This document shows, piece by piece, positions 1-41,795 of a stretch of 64,000 nt of DNA (the first letter of the stretch is position 1; each line of letters opens with the position of its first letter). The notes beneath the pieces are model-generated. The model was not told the origin of the DNA. It searched no databases and saw nothing but the letters and a program-made list of their open reading frames with translations. Source of the DNA: a virus. The position numbers and the translations under genes were made by a program. Location: positions 1-64,000 of the IMG/VR virus record IMGVR_UViG_3300047499_000113; one strand, 5' to 3'.

Positions 1-435
1 GTAGACGCGTACGAGCAAATACTGGTTGCTCCGCAGGTTGTGGCCCTTGATGACCTTCGCCATCTGGCCAGGGAAGAGCGGGAAGGAGACCGGGCCAGGG
101 ATGTTGACCTTGCGGCCGACCAGGAGATCCGCTTGCGACGCCTTGCCCTGACCGCTCGGGTGCTTGTGGTCACCCTTGTCCGTGTACGCCGGGTTCTTCA
201 GGACGACGTAGTAAGCCTCCGGGGCCGTCACGTGGGTGTGAACGGCGCGCTCGACGGGCGCGTCCAAGAACTTCTTGGTCTTCGGATCGAAGACGACGAG
301 CTTGTCGCCGTCACCGAGCGTGACCTTGGTGGGTCCGACGTAGACGTTGACCTCGCCTTTCGTGTTGTCCCGAACGTGGATCCACTCGTTGGGTGCGAGG
401 ACGATGTCCCTGTTCCTGCGGTCTTCTTCGGCCAT
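1..435 (-). CDS. Major vault protein (MVP)-like protein, N-terminal part
   Basis: The gene runs off the left edge, so only the first 145 codons are visible. What is seen: HVRD (20-23), a VGPTKV strand (33-38), LVVFDP (46-51), YYVVLKNP (75-82), FPLFPGQ (118-124) and NQYLLVRV (137-144). In the same order, animal MVP has HVLD, VGPKTY, RVLFAP, HYCTVANP, FPLYPGE and ALHLKA (recalled, not aligned by program). MVP repeats build the shell of the vault ribonucleoprotein particle, whose function is unsettled; some bacteria are reported to carry homologues. The ATG at 435 is preceded by AAGGAG at a 6-base spacing. It lies 42 bases downstream of a small zinc-site gene and the replication genes. Whether the shoulder and cap-helix domains follow cannot be seen. 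Role in the phage unknown. Confidence 0.72.
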   Translation of the reverse strand, partial: MAEEDRRNRDIVLAPNEWIHVRDNTKGEVNVYVGPTKVTLGDGDKLVVFDPKTKKFLDAPVERAVHTHVTAPEAYYVVLKNPAYTDKGDHKHPSGQGKASQADLLVGRKVNIPGPVSFPLFPGQMAKVIKGHNLRSNQYLLVRVY

Positions 436-477
436 GTGCGCCTCCTTGGGGGCAGATGCTGGAGGTTACACCGGCGT

Positions 478-828
478 CTAGGTCAGCATGACCTGCTCGA
501 CGATACTGTAGGGGCAGCCGTTGTCCGGGTGGATTTTCAGATGGTGCCTGGGCATATAGCACTCAGGGCAACAATCCGCGCTGTGGACAATTGCAGTGGG
601 GCCTTTGCCGTCAGGCCGAACTTCTGTGGGCAGGACGTGGATTTTCAGCCTGGGCCCAGACTCCGTCTTTTCCACGGAGATGGAAGCTTTGCCCACGAGC
701 AGGTCCCACTTCTCGATCTCCGTGAAGGCTTCGGCCAACACCGGCTTCAGGATTTCGAAAGCGGGCTCCTCGATGAGCCAGTCAGGGTCGGCTTCTACTT
801 CGGCGTTCCAATGGCTGATGACTGCCAC
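478..828 (-). CDS. Hypothetical protein with C-terminal Cys/His cluster
   Basis: A 116-residue protein I do not recognise. The N-terminal 60 residues are acidic and helix-prone; the C-terminal third carries C86, C87, C90, H95, H96, H100 and C105, a spacing that could hold one zinc ion. The start is GTG at 828, 16 bases after the DnaB-like gene stops; the ATG at 848 is in another frame and terminates quickly. No convincing Shine-Dalgarno is visible, so translation may couple to the upstream gene. It sits between the replicative helicase and the MVP-like gene in one transcription direction. The antisense frame is an Arg/Asp/Val-rich shadow. Confidence 0.7.
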   Translation of the reverse strand: MAVISHWNAEVEADPDWLIEEPAFEILKPVLAEAFTEIEKWDLLVGKASISVEKTESGPRLKIHVLPTEVRPDGKGPTAIVHSADCCPECYMPRHHLKIHPDNGCPYSIVEQVMLT

Positions 829-844
829 GAAGAGACGCTACCGG

Positions 845-2371
845 TCATGAGCCAGTCATCAGCATGTCGTCCATCGTGAGCGTCGTCGCCCGAAGGAGTG
901 CCTGGTCCGTATTCTTGTCCAGAAGACCCGACTCGATGTGGCGCATGCGCTTGGACTGCCAGATGATCTTACCTATCATCCTGTCGAAGATGGCGTTGTC
1001 ACGGTTCTTCATGCAGCCGAGGTAGAACTTGCCATCTTTACGGAGCTGCGGGTTCAAGTATGTGTACGTGATGACGTCGGCGTCCTGCTCGATGCGGTTG
1101 GCGTACGAAATGGCCTCGAACCCGTAGCGACCGTCTTCTTTGTCCGCTTTGACCTTGCCTTGACGGTTGATCTGGTAGAGACCGAAGACCGGCACCGTGC
1201 GGCCTCGAGCGAAGGACAGTGCCATCATGCGGCACTCGGACACGACGTTGTTGACGGCGTCGACCGTGCTCGTGGTCCGCACCTTCGACCTGAGCCAGCC
1301 CATGTGGTCGAGGACGATGCCATCGCAGCCCCACTTGTTGTGGAACATCTCGGCGCGGCGGTAGACATCTTCGACCGGGGTGCCTGTGATGGCTGACGCC
1401 GGTCTCCAGATGTAGAGCCTGCCGGGACACGTGGCCTTGAAGTCCTGCGCGACTATCTTGAGGCGCTGCTCGCCGAGTTCGTCCAGCTCGTAGTCTCGGA
1501 CCTTCTGGTAGTCGAGTCCGACGTAGCATTGATCCGGGGGCAGCCCGCGGCGCCTGTCCTGCTCGTACCAATCGGTGACGAACTTGCCGTGGGACGAGTG
1601 CACAACGAACAGCTGCCGGCGAAGCTGCTTATACGGCATTTCGAAGATGCCGTAGAAGATGTTGCGGCCGAACAAATACGCGTTGTTGTAGGCGTAGTTG
1701 AGCGCGAGAGTTGTCTTCAGTTCACCCGGGGCGGCGCAGTGGACCCAAAACTCGCCTGACCGGTGACCCTTACACACGGCGTCGACAGGCTCGAGCCCGA
1801 TGATGTTGCGTCCCGCGAACTTGCTGGTGAGCTTGCCTTTGTCGTACTCCTCGAGGAATTCCTCGGCGTCCTCCGTGACGATGCCCTCGAGCTTCTCGCC
1901 GGACTCGACGCGCGAGAAGTCCGACATCTTTTCGTAGATGAAGTTGATGGCGTCGTTGACGCCTTTGAGGACTTTCTTGCCGTTGATCGGCTTCTCGAGA
2001 TTGCGGCCGTGCTCGGCAATCGCTGAAGCGTCGCGCGCTGCAAGGATGAACGACTTGACCTGCTGTTGCTCTTGCTCGGAGCGGACGACTGACAGGAAGT
2101 TGGTGCGGATGTAGGGCTGGGCTTTCTTGAGTTCCTCCAGCCTCGTGCAGACCTCGACCTCATCCTGCTTCTCGAAGTAGTCGCGCACCAGGGTGAAATC
2201 TGGCGGCGCCGACATTTGGTTGAAGAAGGTCTTGAGGTACTGGTAGATCTTGCGGTCTTCCTCGTGCGGGTACTCAAGCTCATACTCTTGCAGGCGCATC
2301 CAGTTCTGGAGCGCTTCATCCACCTCGGGATGACCACCCACCTGCATGAGACTGCGGAGTATTCTATCCAC
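845..2371 (-). CDS. DnaB-like replicative helicase
   Basis: A 508-aa RecA-fold ATPase of the DnaB helicase family, expected to unwind DNA at the phage fork. The N-terminal 180 residues are helical, as in the DnaB N-domain and linker. The C-terminal domain shows a P-loop-like APGELKTT (214-221), a Walker B strand GIVLDHMGWL (351-360), the YQIN sensor-like segment (399-402) and NRIEQDADVI (425-434), matching the IEQDADV signature of DnaB. Oddity: the P-loop has E-L before K-T-T instead of the usual G-K-T/S. The GTG start at 2371 overlaps the stop of the preceding gene by one base (TAGTG), with AGGTTC upstream. Next to a loader-like and a SNF2-like gene, it forms a replication block. Confidence 0.85.
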   Translation of the reverse strand: MDRILRSLMQVGGHPEVDEALQNWMRLQEYELEYPHEEDRKIYQYLKTFFNQMSAPPDFTLVRDYFEKQDEVEVCTRLEELKKAQPYIRTNFLSVVRSEQEQQQVKSFILAARDASAIAEHGRNLEKPINGKKVLKGVNDAINFIYEKMSDFSRVESGEKLEGIVTEDAEEFLEEYDKGKLTSKFAGRNIIGLEPVDAVCKGHRSGEFWVHCAAPGELKTTLALNYAYNNAYLFGRNIFYGIFEMPYKQLRRQLFVVHSSHGKFVTDWYEQDRRRGLPPDQCYVGLDYQKVRDYELDELGEQRLKIVAQDFKATCPGRLYIWRPASAITGTPVEDVYRRAEMFHNKWGCDGIVLDHMGWLRSKVRTTSTVDAVNNVVSECRMMALSFARGRTVPVFGLYQINRQGKVKADKEDGRYGFEAISYANRIEQDADVITYTYLNPQLRKDGKFYLGCMKNRDNAIFDRMIGKIIWQSKRMRHIESGLLDKNTDQALLRATTLTMDDMLMTGS

Positions 2372-3230: not shown

Positions 3231-5303
3231 TTACACGTCCGAAAAGTCAATCGCGATGTCGGCGATCTTGTAGTTATCCTCAGCAACAGTTGTAAATGAC
3301 TGCTTGGCGGTTGACTTCTTGACTTTCTTGGCTTTGACGGGCGTCTTGGACTTGTCGGTGAGCAGACCCTGGAGAACGTCCTGCAGAGCGTTCTGCTCCA
3401 CGAACTTGAGGCCATCCTTGAGATTCTCGCCGGCGACTTTGTCCGCGAGCTTCTTCTTGGTCCGCAGGGCTTTGAGTACCTGGTGGTCGATGGTCTTGCT
3501 TTCATCACGCTTGCGGCCGAGGAAGTGATGGGCGACCACCATCTTGTGCAGCGAGCCGATGCGAAGCGCGCGTCCGATGAGCTGCAAGTAATCGCCCCAG
3601 CTCCACGGCAGGTCGAGCAAGCCGAAGTGCTCGGCTGAGTGCAGGTTGAGGCTTTCCGAGCCGGCGGTCGTGATGAGGATGACGTTCACGCCGGAGTTCA
3701 TGTCCTGGAACATCGCACGGTTCTTGTCGCGAACCTGTGCGTTGTTCTCTTTGCCCGTAATGCGCGTGCAGGCGATGTCCTTGTCCTTCAGGGCCTTCTC
3801 GACGAGCGAAATCATGCGCTCGAACTTCGAGAACACGATGACCTTCTGATCGGCCGCCTCGGTCTGCAGAAGCTCGATGAGTGCATCGATCTTGGACGAC
3901 GGGCCCTTGTACGGCTCGCCGTTCTCGTCCATCAGCAGCTCGGGCGAATCGCACGCCTGCTGGCACATCACCATCGCCGACAGAAGCTCGGAGTCGGACG
4001 TGTCCGGGTCGTTGTTCTTGTTGATGAGCCCGTTCTCGGCCAGGTCATACAGCTCTTCCTGCAGCTCGGTCAGCTCGCACTCGATCTCCATCGAGACAAG
4101 CTCCGGAAGCTCCTTGGCCACGTCGTGCTTTTTGCGCGACAGGTAGTAGGGCTCGATTATCTCGACAAACTTCTCGAGGTTCTTGTACCCGACGACCAGC
4201 AGGACGTTGCGCCCTCCGCCGATGGACTGCAATCTCGTGACGCAGAACTGCTCGTGGAAATGCGAGATCTTGGGGAAGAGCGACGGTTGCAGAATCCGGA
4301 AGAGGCTCCAGAATTCCATGAGTCGGTTCTTGACTGGCGTCGCCGTCAGGCCGTAGGCGCGCTGGGCCACCTTCGCCAGCATTGCCGTCTTCTCGTGGAA
4401 CTGGCTCTTGTGATTCTTGAGTTTGTGCATCTCATCCATGACGAGAAGGAACTTCAGATGCGGATGAGCCTTTCGCATCTTCTGCACGTAGTCGATGATC
4501 CCCGGAACCTTCTTCGGGGGAGCGAACTCGTCGCGCAGCGCCTTGAGCTTGGCCTCCGCGTCTACGGCTGACTGCCTCCGCTCGAGGTAAGCTGTGAAGA
4601 CCTGCGCGTCCGCTTCCGTGAACATGCTGGGCGGCTGCGGCTTCGTCTCGTAATTGACGAAATCCGCCAGGTATTGGTGCACCTGCCACGGGTGCTCACG
4701 GAAGTAGGCGTCGAACTTCTCCTTCTCAGCTTCGAAAAGGGTCGCCGCTTCTTTGCTCGCCGCTCGAGCGGCGTCCAATTCCTTCTGGAAGCCCTTGCGC
4801 GGTGACTTGCCCTTCTCCTTGATCACCGCCTCGTGCATGTCGTACATGATCATGTCGTACGACAAGATCAGCAGGCGTTTCTTGTCCGGGTCGTACGTGG
4901 AAAAGAACTGCTCGTAGATTTCGTGCCGGCGAAAGGGTGAGCCGTGGACTGTGACGGCCTCCATGCCCTGCATGAAGCGCTTCGTCTCGCCTTCCCACTG
5001 GAAGAGTGCCGACTTTGTGGTGATGATGATAGGAACGTATTCCGGCTCCTTCATCCAAATGTAGCCGATGGTCGACAGGACCTCGAGCGTCTTGCCGAGG
5101 CCGGTGTCGTCTCCGAGGAGCATGCGCTCGACTTGGAGCATGTTGAGGACGCCCTGCGCCTGGTAGACGCGCAGCTTGACGTCCCTCTCGTCGCCGTACT
5201 CATCCGTGTACTTTTCCCTAAGATAGGGAGACGGCTTGAGCGCCAGATCCGGCTTGGTCCGAATCTGTCGGATTTTGGCGAGAAGATCGGGTGAGATCAT
5301 CAC
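3231..5303 (-). CDS. SNF2-family DEAD/H ATPase (helicase/translocase)
   Basis: A 690-aa superfamily 2 translocase of the SNF2/RapA type, moving on double-stranded DNA and remodelling protein-DNA complexes. Visible motifs: YQAQGV (Q-like, 47-52), DDTGLGKT (65-72, Walker A), DEMH (290-293, Walker B), GLTATPVKN (318-326, motif III), VIVFSKFERM (about 480), TAGSESLNL (motif V) and QLIGRALRIG (motif VI, about 580). A charged helical insertion of about 130 residues separates motifs I and II. The last 60 residues are Lys-rich. The start may be GTG 5303 or the adjacent ATG 5300. Such enzymes are common in large phages for recombination-dependent replication or transcription. No nuclease domain is visible. 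Confidence 0.88.
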   Translation of the reverse strand: MMISPDLLAKIRQIRTKPDLALKPSPYLREKYTDEYGDERDVKLRVYQAQGVLNMLQVERMLLGDDTGLGKTLEVLSTIGYIWMKEPEYVPIIITTKSALFQWEGETKRFMQGMEAVTVHGSPFRRHEIYEQFFSTYDPDKKRLLILSYDMIMYDMHEAVIKEKGKSPRKGFQKELDAARAASKEAATLFEAEKEKFDAYFREHPWQVHQYLADFVNYETKPQPPSMFTEADAQVFTAYLERRQSAVDAEAKLKALRDEFAPPKKVPGIIDYVQKMRKAHPHLKFLLVMDEMHKLKNHKSQFHEKTAMLAKVAQRAYGLTATPVKNRLMEFWSLFRILQPSLFPKISHFHEQFCVTRLQSIGGGRNVLLVVGYKNLEKFVEIIEPYYLSRKKHDVAKELPELVSMEIECELTELQEELYDLAENGLINKNNDPDTSDSELLSAMVMCQQACDSPELLMDENGEPYKGPSSKIDALIELLQTEAADQKVIVFSKFERMISLVEKALKDKDIACTRITGKENNAQVRDKNRAMFQDMNSGVNVILITTAGSESLNLHSAEHFGLLDLPWSWGDYLQLIGRALRIGSLHKMVVAHHFLGRKRDESKTIDHQVLKALRTKKKLADKVAGENLKDGLKFVEQNALQDVLQGLLTDKSKTPVKAKKVKKSTAKQSFTTVAEDNYKIADIAIDFSDV

Positions 5304-5326: not shown

Positions 5327-5767
5327 TCAGTGCTTGGAAGCGCCGCCGCAGTTCCAGCCCATTGCCTGCACGTCAGCCGAGGTCTTGGCACCGAGCAGAT
5401 CGTTGCAGGTGAGGCCCTGCTGGGTCTTGGGGTTGCGGATGACGCGGTTGGCCTGCGCGAGCGACAGAACCTTGGCGCAATCCGCCTGCTGGGCGCAGCC
5501 CATGGCGGCCATCTGAGCGCATGCCTTGGCGCACGGATCCGTGGGAGCCGGAGGAGCTGCATCCTGCGCCGGAGTCGGAGCGGGAGCTGCATCGACCGCA
5601 GGCGTCGGCGTGGGGGCCGAATCCATGGTCGGGACAGGCGGCGGAGGGCTTCCGTCGGGTCCTCCGTCCGGTGCCGGTGGGTTGGGCGGGGTCGGAGGGC
5701 ACCCCGCCATGCCGAGCGTCGACACGGCCAGGAAGAGCCCGAGAAGGGGGATCGCTGTCTTCTTCAT
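5327..5767 (-). CDS. Lipoprotein with Pro/Ala-rich linker and Cys-rich C-terminus
   Basis: A 146-aa lipoprotein: MKK start, hydrophobic core and lipobox LGMAGC, so mature Cys is about residue 22 and it would be lipid-anchored. Next comes a Pro/Asp/Gly/Ala linker (about 23-75) able to span periplasm, then a small domain with seven Cys, beginning CAKACAQMAAMGCAQQADC. Cys-rich domains after such linkers are typical of Myxococcota lipoproteins. The ATG at 5767 overlaps the protease stop by one base (TGATG); upstream ATG/GTG codons lie inside the protease gene and would spoil the signal peptide. As last gene of the membrane/protease cassette it could be an outer spanin or an envelope-modifying protein; both are guesses. 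Confidence 0.8.
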   Translation of the reverse strand: MKKTAIPLLGLFLAVSTLGMAGCPPTPPNPPAPDGGPDGSPPPPVPTMDSAPTPTPAVDAAPAPTPAQDAAPPAPTDPCAKACAQMAAMGCAQQADCAKVLSLAQANRVIRNPKTQQGLTCNDLLGAKTSADVQAMGWNCGGASKH

Positions 5768-6636
5768 CACGCAGCCGCCTTCTGGACCTGGACGTCCATC
5801 ACGTAAAGCTCCCAGGCCGCCTTGACCCACGCCTCGGAAACGAGGCAGCGACCGTTGTCACACCAGCCGGTACCCCAGCTGTTGGTGAGGATGAAGGTGC
5901 GGGTTCCGTCCGCGTTGGTGGTGTAGCCCGACAGGTAGATGGCGTGGCCACCGCCGTTCGGGTCGTTCGTGTTCGGAGGCTGCGCCACCTGGCCCGGCTG
6001 CAGCTGCTCGAACGCCGTGTCGACGAACGCCGCGACGTAGACCGGGAAACCGGCGGCGAGAGCCGCAGCCACCTGATCCGAAACGTTCGCTGCACTCGGG
6101 TCGATGGCGTACTCGCCCGTGACGATGGTGGTGCCAGCTGCCTGGAGCTGGTTGGCGTCCACCTCGTTGTTGACGTTCGCCGGCTGAGCCGTCGTGTCAG
6201 CATCCGACCAGATGTCGGAGTTGCGGCCGTCCGGAGTCGGGCCCTGCATCGGAGCAACGCCGAACTGCGCGCATGCCGTGAACACGTCCGCGGGCTCGGC
6301 GCCCGAGTCGGTGAGAAGCGGCAGGGGCTGACCCGCCGGCGTCTGCGCCGCGCGCTCGATTCCTCGAGTAGCGGCGTACGTCTCGCGCGGCGAAGGCTCG
6401 AACCCGATCTGGATGCCCGCCTTGCGGCAAGCTGTGGAGGTGCTGCCCGACAGCGAGTGCGCCGTGCAGGAGCCCGTCTGGCCCTGATCGAGCCGCGGGG
6501 GCTCCCACTGGGACAGGTCGACGGACGCCGGAACGGTGGCCGCAAGGAGTGCGGCAATCGCCGGGTGGGTGGCCGCCGCTTTCTTGGAGGCGACCTTCGA
6601 CGGATGACTGCGCTTTGCACCCTTTGCGAACGGCAT
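5767..6636 (-). CDS. Papain-like (C1A family) cysteine protease
   Basis: A 289-aa protein with the full papain arrangement: DQGQTGSC with the oxyanion Gln and nucleophile Cys57, GGGHAIYLSGY with His231, and TNSWGTGWC with Asn252. The spacing fits the C1A peptidase domain without a long pro-region. The N-terminus is Lys/Ala-rich and not an obvious signal peptide, so export would need a holin-like pore or host secretion. It abuts the upstream gene (TAA then ATG) and overlaps the downstream lipoprotein by one base, so the four genes are surely co-translated. In a lysis cassette it could cut envelope proteins or peptide crosslinks; alternatively it could process virion proteins. I see no muramidase, amidase or CHAP enzyme anywhere in the window. 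Confidence 0.87.
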   Translation of the reverse strand: MPFAKGAKRSHPSKVASKKAAATHPAIAALLAATVPASVDLSQWEPPRLDQGQTGSCTAHSLSGSTSTACRKAGIQIGFEPSPRETYAATRGIERAAQTPAGQPLPLLTDSGAEPADVFTACAQFGVAPMQGPTPDGRNSDIWSDADTTAQPANVNNEVDANQLQAAGTTIVTGEYAIDPSAANVSDQVAAALAAGFPVYVAAFVDTAFEQLQPGQVAQPPNTNDPNGGGHAIYLSGYTTNADGTRTFILTNSWGTGWCDNGRCLVSEAWVKAAWELYVMDVQVQKAAA

Positions 6637-40169: not shown

Positions 40170-41795
40170 CTAGAAGGTAGCGATCAGCATCCAGTCATTT
40201 TGCCCGTCGCTGACAAACATGTAGGAGGTGCGTGAACTGACGGGTGTGAACGAGAGCCCAGTCTGCCCGTCCATTGTGTCCGCCCCGGTTGGAACCAAGC
40301 CGACTGCATTCGTCGAGGTCGCGATGGCCTTGACCACGATGGGAATGCCGTAGTAGAGAGCGGCCTCAGGGAAGAGGACGTTGACCGGCTGGTGCGTGGA
40401 ATTCACGCGCACGATCTGTCCGGGCTCCGCAAGGACAGTGATCGCCGATTGCTCAGGCGTGGGGGAATAGCTGGTGTTGATGGGCCCGGTGACGCCTTGC
40501 GGTCCCTGAATACCCGTAGCACCGATGGGCCCTTGAGGACCTGTGGCGCCTTGCGGTCCAGTCGGTCCGATGGCACCCTGAGGACCAATATCGCCGGTCG
40601 GGCCCTGTACACCAGTGGCTCCCGGGGGCCCGCCAAAAGGACCAGTTGGTCCTTGATCTCCCTGCGGCCCCGTGGCACCCGCAGGTCCGGTCGGACCCGT
40701 CGCGCCCGTGAGACCCTGGTTTCCTTGGGGGCCCTGGACGCCGGTCGCGCCTTGCGGGCCGGTCGCCCCAACAGGGCCAGTTGGCCCGAGAGGGCCGGTG
40801 AATCCGATAGGCCCGGGAGTCCCTTCGATACCCTGGACGCCGGTCGCTCCTTGGGGTCCCGTCGCACCTTGCGGGCCGACTGCACCCGTAGGGCCGGGCG
40901 GACCACCGAATGGGCCGGTGGGTCCTTGCGGACCAGCGGAGCCCGTTGGTCCGGCAGGCCCTGCAGGGCCTGTTGCACCAGCTTGACCGGTTCCCTCGAG
41001 CGCAATGGCTGAAAGGTTGCCCGCGTCGAACTGGATTTGGTTGCCACCTACGCTTCGCCACTGGACTTTGACGGTATACGTCCCGGCGGGAAGTTGAGTG
41101 CTAACAAAGTTGTTCGAGACAATTGCGGCTTCGTTAGTGTTCACCTCATTGCGCCGAATCTCCGAGCTAAGTTGCCCGTCGATGTAGAGAATGATGCCGA
41201 TGGACTCCGTGGTGCTAATCTGCTCCCACTGGATATCGGTTTGAGCGTAAATAGCGCAAGTTGCGCTGGTCGTAATAGTCGTGCCGAGCCCAGGAACATC
41301 GACAAACGACGTCGACGTAGTTGTGGCGGGCCCGACTGCAGATGCGTAGGCAGAATCGATCGGGTTGTTCGGACCTGCAGGCCCTGTAGCGCCATCAGCC
41401 CCGGTGGCTCCCGGGATACCCTGCGGCCCCTGGATTCCCTGCGGACCCTGAGGGCCAGTGGAGCCCTGCGGACCGATTGCCCCGGTTGGTCCCTGGACAC
41501 CGGTGGGCCCGATGGTGCCCTCGACGAAATTGGTCAGAGCGCCAGCAGTCAAAACGTGAGTGACAGTCGCTCCCGGGAGGTGCTGAGCCGGAGGCGTGTT
41601 CTCGATGCCGCGGATGACAGAGAAGACGCTGCCCTGAATACCCGTCACCAGCATCAACTCGTTGTCGATGCGGATGCGGAACTGCGGCGCCGGCGGGAAC
41701 TGGGTGACGTTCGTCGTCTGGACGTAGTTCGTCACTGCGTCCAGCGGCAGCTGCAGAGTCCCCTGGGCTGTGTTGGCAAATTGCTCTTGGGCCAT
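40170..41795 (-). CDS. Collagen-like tail fibre protein
   Basis: A 541-aa fibre. Residues 31-90 match the phage fibre docking domain ([41 protein letters not shown]). Residues 93-142 and 273-439 are Gly-X-Y collagen-like repeats rich in [10 protein letters not shown], with short GG interruptions (PFGGPP at 295-300 and 386-391). Residues 144-271 form a beta domain ([16 protein letters not shown]). Residues 440-541 form a tip domain ([43 protein letters not shown]) seen on many fibres. It should trimerise through the collagen helix and bind a surface receptor. The ribosome site lies in a strong predicted hairpin (41,797-41,831). Confidence 0.88.
40479..40979 (-). repeat. Collagen-like Gly-X-Y repeat, segment 2
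   Basis: About 165 codons of Gly-X-Y triplets, giving a strongly repetitive DNA tract (GGXCCN-rich) inside the fibre gene. Repeated [10 protein letters not shown] units could recombine and change fibre length in frame. Confidence 0.9.
41369..41519 (-). repeat. Collagen-like Gly-X-Y repeat, segment 1
   Basis: About 50 codons of Gly-X-Y triplets between the N-terminal docking domain and the central beta domain of the fibre protein. Confidence 0.88.

Follow-up and report, generated by a model that had tools for sequence, protein, structure and literature searches.

The first 435 nucleotides of the window analysed here, a 64,000-nucleotide stretch comprising bases 1-64000 of the linear, 240,015-bp IMG/VR virus record IMGVR_UViG_3300047499_000113, almost certainly hold the opening 145 codons of a homologue of the major vault protein (MVP), which builds the vault particle of animal cells, a barrel of 78 subunits. 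Because whole copies of the MVP gene are found in many very large phages as well as in many bacteria, phages probably make vault-like shells. Taken as one claim, that the phage protein is an MVP homologue and also assembles as a vault-like cage is a reading we favour with some reserve.

The truncated gene and its full-length relatives

The reading frame lies on the minus strand, which corrects an earlier, sequence-only reading of this DNA, and runs open from an ATG at position 435 to the contig's first base, giving 145 residues and no stop. That reading had proposed retrieving the full gene from beyond the left edge, but the missing part lies past the end of the contig and not merely past the window. 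The window edge is thus also the contig edge, and the remainder of this MVP copy is lost: searches for the missing 3′ part found no overlapping viral contig with the edge sequence, no MVP reading frame at the opposite contig end, and no terminal repeat on the 240,015-bp contig.

A profile built from 62 bacterial-only MVP homologues matches the fragment with 194 bits at an E-value of 1.6e-58, and the alignment runs collinearly along profile positions 2-140. The same profile matches none of 500 shuffles of the fragment, and the fragment is the sole significant open reading frame (ORF) of its contig against it. The ordered MVP landmarks that had been noted in the N-terminus are present and conserved in alignments with full-length phage and bacterial relatives, where little or no variation is seen at the glycine and proline of VGP or in the Y..L.NP and GP.SF.L.PGQ sets.

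The certainty of this identification comes from the full-length relatives and not from the fragment alone. The closest relative found in the viral scan is L005, a complete 900-residue phage protein that is 76% identical over the shared part. MVP_shoulder (PF11978), a domain before which the window's copy ends, scores 69-101 bits in full-length relatives (cut-off 25), and Vault_3 is above its cut-off in three of four. With a 46-sequence family profile, solved MVP chains are matched at E 3e-38 in a region that covers the last repeat, the shoulder and the helix.

The predicted structure of L005 points the same way. In the AlphaFold model, built with 51 sequences (mean predicted local distance difference test score, pLDDT, 75), the domain order is that of MVP: β repeats, shoulder, long helix and C-terminal helices. 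The first repeats span residues 28-390 and are followed by a low-confidence stretch up to 510, the last repeat (about 515-576), the shoulder (about 577-690), a 136-residue helix (693-828) and short C-terminal helices to 883. The repeats and shoulder are modelled at a pLDDT of about 90 and the helix with moderate to low confidence; conservation is high in repeats and shoulder and low in linker and helix. The repeats number about seven, a count which is our own reading of the strand pattern and not the output of a tool. The top 16 Foldseek matches of the model are all vault or MVP entries (E 1e-34 to 2e-13), with the MVP R1-R7 crystal structures matched at E 4e-14; the next entries are the flotillin, prohibitin and HflK-C proteins of the SPFH group, at E 1e-7 and weaker. 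The TM-scores are low, as a long chain with hinges would lead one to expect, and the claim is carried by the E-values and the R1-R7 match. The hidden Markov model search and structure prediction that had been suggested as checks thus both favour MVP, and the MVP-like gene at this position is borne out by profile, Pfam domains of relatives, solved structures and fold alike.

Some results set limits to the assignment. By itself the fragment, which is too short, reaches only E 0.011 with Pfam Vault_2 (16.6 bits, below the cut-off of 23.6) and has no match in the PDB; an N-terminal family profile ranks vault chains first in the PDB, yet only at E 0.2. Strong sequence homology to animal MVP is confined to the last repeat, shoulder and helix, and for the N-terminal repeats the case is made by fold and sub-threshold matches. 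No matching MVP model was found in PHROGs or NCBIfam.

Phage copies, bacterial relatives and their trees

The phage location proposed for the gene is supported by the rest of the contig, which encodes a portal protein (168178-169971) and a terminase large subunit (170758-172740), both about 170 kb from the MVP gene. A further viral scan returned 184 stretches encoding MVP relatives, and in the phage collection the uncultured huge phages LR756501 (735 kb) and LR756500 (462 kb) also encode MVP; no MVP match was found in plasmids. At an E-value of 0.001 or better, Terminase_6N matches 13 of the 46 long records with MVP; this one model misses divergent terminases, including that of the window's contig.

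Phage MVP genes are intact and mostly present in one copy, and purifying selection acts on them. The shoulder domain is above cut-off and free of internal stops in 39 of 40 MVP-bearing phage records, the exception being the window's cut contig, and copy number in the 40 records tested is nearly always one. Nonsynonymous divergence (dN) is far below synonymous divergence (dS) in four pairwise comparisons, among them that of the window fragment with L005 (dN 0.21, dS 0.93). The 402-kb record G018 has two MVP shoulder copies (C1:183655-184005 and 396671-397024); Ro-like, NADAR and NAPRTase matches likewise occur twice in it, and it may therefore be two phages joined in one record. In L054 (9488-9976) and L071 (9497-9985) the MVP frame reaches about 160 codons further upstream, and the added part has zinc-finger-like CxxCxGxG motifs; this sub-clade may have an N-terminal fusion.

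Bacterial MVP homologues are already present in databases and have featured in earlier evolutionary work. A scan of bacterial genomes returned 190 stretches with MVP relatives, of which 80 were kept. They come from Myxococcota, Bacteroidota and many candidate phyla, and the isolates include Nannocystis exedens and Saprospira grandis. In the trees there are several deep phage branches, and most bacterial sequences lie on a branch of their own. L005, the nearest full-length relative of the window's copy, falls in an all-phage clade with L055, L051, L060 and others on supported branches. Animal MVP served only as a partial, long-branched outgroup, and the root of the tree is therefore unsure.

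The approximately unbiased (AU) test rejects a single phage clade when every bacterial row is included. After removal of eight basal or phage-embedded rows from uncultured metagenome-assembled genomes (MAGs), the split between phages and bacteria has p 0.25 and a single phage clade is not rejected. Multiple transfers between phages and bacteria were considered, and we claim no count of them, because the AU rejection vanishes without these eight rows and some of the eight may be misbinned phage contigs. Two MAG contigs assigned to candidate phyla radiation bacteria, L130 (Parcubacteria) and L146 (Yanofskybacteria), encode MVPs that branch inside phage clades and are possibly misbinned phage contigs. 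The sequence-only reading had raised transfer between phage and gliding bacteria. The link to gliding bacteria stands, close homologues being found in genomes of Nannocystis, Plesiocystis, Saprospira and the Microscilla type; a recent transfer of the window's copy is not supported, given its nearest relative's place in an all-phage clade and the p of 0.25.

Proposed cage assembly, candidate cargo and neighbouring genes

How might the phage protein act? We propose that soluble MVP would assemble in the infected cell through its repeat wall, SPFH-type shoulder and long helix, and that half-barrels would pair at their N-termini into a vault-like cage that the phage makes and does not take from its host. 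In shape this barrel should depart somewhat from the animal vault, given about seven repeats in place of nine and the long low-confidence linker that precedes the last. On balance we think it somewhat probable that phage MVP forms a closed or half cage.

SPFH proteins suggest another architecture. The protein might be a scaffold of the stomatin, prohibitin and flotillin kind, in which a membrane-bound half-cage would wear the MVP repeats as a skirt instead of a closed, soluble vault being formed. The shoulder of MVP has the SPFH fold, prohibitin, flotillin and HflK-C come next in the Foldseek ranking, and Band_7 is matched in L006 (24.7 bits) and L180 (29.2 bits). In six phage loci a flotillin-like gene is found close to MVP as a separate gene, and vaults are reported to bind membranes in Dictyostelium (PMC13100048). 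However, MVP_shoulder outscores Band_7 by about 70 bits, and vault repeats occupy the place of the membrane anchor of canonical members (PMC13100048). None of 91 phage MVP sequences has an anchor-like stretch (maximum 19-residue hydropathy 1.47), and soluble assembly is therefore favoured over a membrane-bound half-cage; we consider the scaffold unlikely.

The genes that recur near phage MVPs suggest what a soluble cage might hold. In the largest phage clade (L011-L074), the recurrent same-strand genes within 10 kb encode metallophosphatases, a polynucleotide-kinase-like AAA protein, Thg1, two RNA ligase families, a Ro-like DUF2828/DUF7788 protein, NADAR, isochorismatase and flotillin-like proteins. 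A model of the DUF2828 protein has Ro60 and Rsr as its best fold match (E 2e-4, model confidence moderate). The Ro60-like protein, with DUF2828 and the vWA-type DUF7788, is encoded near MVP on the same strand in L026, L027, L028, L029, L032, L033, L034, L038, L041 (e.g. L041:6587-8152), L043, L046, L047, L061, L062 and L063. Of the 18 contigs with a Ro-like gene, 10 have it no more than 25 kb from MVP (4.2 expected by random placement), and of the 15 with a NAPRTase-family gene 7 do (2.7 expected). The 323-kb phage G037 encodes a true TROVE protein, a nicotinamide adenine dinucleotide (NAD) synthase and a nicotinamidase within about 13 kb of MVP. In that phage nicotinamidase, NAD synthase, deaminase and TROVE/Ro genes stand in a row (L249:11-6551, or G037:250510-257050), with a NAPRTase gene about 5 kb beyond.

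The cage may thus hold or shield RNA-protein cargo such as Ro-like proteins, RNA and tRNA repair enzymes and NAD-salvage enzymes, and protection of this cargo could counter host defences that cut RNA or drain NAD. This cargo role is the weakest step of the proposal, a best guess that we hold to be improbable as it stands: the Ro-like, RNA-ligase and NAD-salvage genes near MVP are leads and not evidence of a complex. Similarly speculative is the broader picture in which huge phages would build their own vaults in infected bacteria, as a compartment distinct from the phage nucleus that gathers Ro-type ribonucleoproteins and RNA-repair and NAD-salvage enzymes against defences.

Cage assembly, and with it the particle during infection that the sequence-only reading had considered, is an extrapolation from known vault architecture, and several observations weaken the case for such cargo. 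The contigs used for the proximity counts are related and not independent, which makes the permutation p-values optimistic. NADAR genes are no nearer MVP than chance, and the window's contig has no Ro-like gene (TROVE or DUF2828). Ro-like genes occur in 681 phage records as against only 3 with MVP, and among 46 MVP records TROVE is found in 3 and Ro-like DUF2828 in only 17, so a Ro-like protein as obligate partner was rejected. DUF4062, a domain of the vault partner TEP1, is found in 0 of 40 MVP-bearing records, and a TEP1-like NADase partner was likewise rejected.

The same neighbours bear on a narrower role in counter-defence, in which the shoulder would be a binding site for NAD or ADP-ribose, as it is in human vaults, and the cage would buffer or sense these molecules. 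In the human vault, ADP-ribose and related nucleotides sit in the shoulder (PMC13174449), and both the NAPRTase counts and the NAD genes of G037 would fit. We nevertheless regard this role as quite unlikely, given the lack of NADAR enrichment, the relatedness of the contigs and the gene content of the window's own contig, which has no NAPRTase and a NADAR-domain gene at G000:C1:213140-213499 (+), about 26.5 kb from the other end and at least 26 kb from MVP.

A virion or tail component with repeated β domains is very improbable. The long minus-strand ORFs of the phage genome do include tail-fibre-like repeats, but both profile and fold identify the full-length relatives as MVP along their whole length, where the sequence-only reading had allowed that the rest of the protein might belong to a tail protein. 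No PHROG virion family matches these relatives, no virion gene was found among those recurrent neighbours that have an annotation, and terminase and portal are distant in the window's contig. Least probable of all is a gene of the bacterial host that the phage carries as a passenger, or a contig of bacterial origin filed among viruses by mistake: the close relatives in 190 bacterial stretches would allow it, but the contig's terminase and portal, the grouping of L005 with phage sequences only, the near lack of neighbours common to bacterial and phage loci and the purifying selection on phage MVP all argue against it.

The features at the MVP end of the window are listed in Table 1. Its neighbours there, the 116-residue ORF and the two helicases, do not adjoin MVP in the related phages examined; a conserved MVP operon was rejected on this ground, and we therefore claim no dedicated partner. 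The replication region in which the gene had been placed holds only in that DnaB-like and SNF2-type helicases adjoin it here. No Rfam family at all matches in the window, so that no vault RNA is recognisable there, and phage-specific RNAs would not be in Rfam. A papain-family cysteine protease is encoded a few genes from the MVP gene (5767-6636, minus strand). A 541-residue protein (40170-41795, minus strand) has many matches to collagen-like tail-fibre PHROGs, which are probably repeat-driven.

Table 1 Features at the MVP end of the window.
Feature	Positions	Strand	Basis
MVP-family gene, 5′ 145 codons (repeats R1 and R2), cut by contig end	1..435	-	194 bits to bacterial MVP profile; 75-76% identity to L005; purifying selection
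Shine-Dalgarno-like AAGGAGG just 5′ of the start codon of the MVP gene	436..449	-	sequence
116-residue ORF upstream of MVP gene, no Pfam match; not known to belong to the MVP system	478..828	-	
DnaB-like replicative helicase (context only)	845..2371	-	PF03796 E 2e-12; phrog_19 E 5e-25
SNF2-type helicase (context only)	3231..5303	-	PF00176 E 5e-37

Significance and comparison with known systems

Vaults are still described as exclusively eukaryotic or as absent from prokaryotes (PMC11855390, PMC9778704). The sequences described here extend the vault fold firmly into bacteria and phages; if phages do build vaults, these would be an ancient invention of prokaryotes and viruses and not a eukaryotic one. 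No report of a phage MVP was found in the open-access literature searched, so novelty is provisional, and the word "vault" is absent from the main text of a study of huge phages (PMC7162821). What vaults do has been debated for decades, and phage MVP offers a tractable setting for this question: the life cycle is fast, genes can be deleted and the hosts have known defences. For jumbo-phage biology it is a possible new protein compartment.

Archaeal Borgs encode a predicted vault protein, reported from structure prediction (PMC12660748). This is also a vault-type protein on a giant non-chromosomal element; Borgs, however, are not phages. The SPFH proteins stomatin, prohibitin, flotillin and HflK/C have in common with phage MVP the fold of the shoulder and the helix that follows it. 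They differ in that phage MVP lacks the anchor stretch and has vault repeats in front, and the Foldseek E-value is about 1e-7 as compared to 1e-34 for the vault.

Eukaryotic MVP (rat, human and rabbit; PF11978, PF17794, PF17795, PF01505) shows the domain order of phage MVP, from repeats through shoulder and long helix to C-terminal helices, with a significant sequence match over the last repeat, shoulder and helix and a Foldseek match over the whole chain. It has nine repeats where phage MVP has about seven and a long low-confidence linker before the last one, and the N-terminal repeats of the phage protein are barely recognisable against it by sequence. Of the partners of the eukaryotic vault, TEP1-type DUF4062 is absent from the phage MVP genomes searched, and Rfam recognises no vault RNA in the window.

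The bacterial MVPs of Nannocystis exedens, Plesiocystis pacifica, Saprospira grandis, Thermoflexibacter and others differ from those of phages in that their core sequences form their own branch and their neighbourhoods share almost nothing with phage MVP loci. In the protein itself the two agree in several respects: the median lengths are 828 and 827 residues, the domain order is the same, identity to L005 is 42-51% over nearly the full chain, and the N-terminal RxRDLVLAPNE block is conserved.
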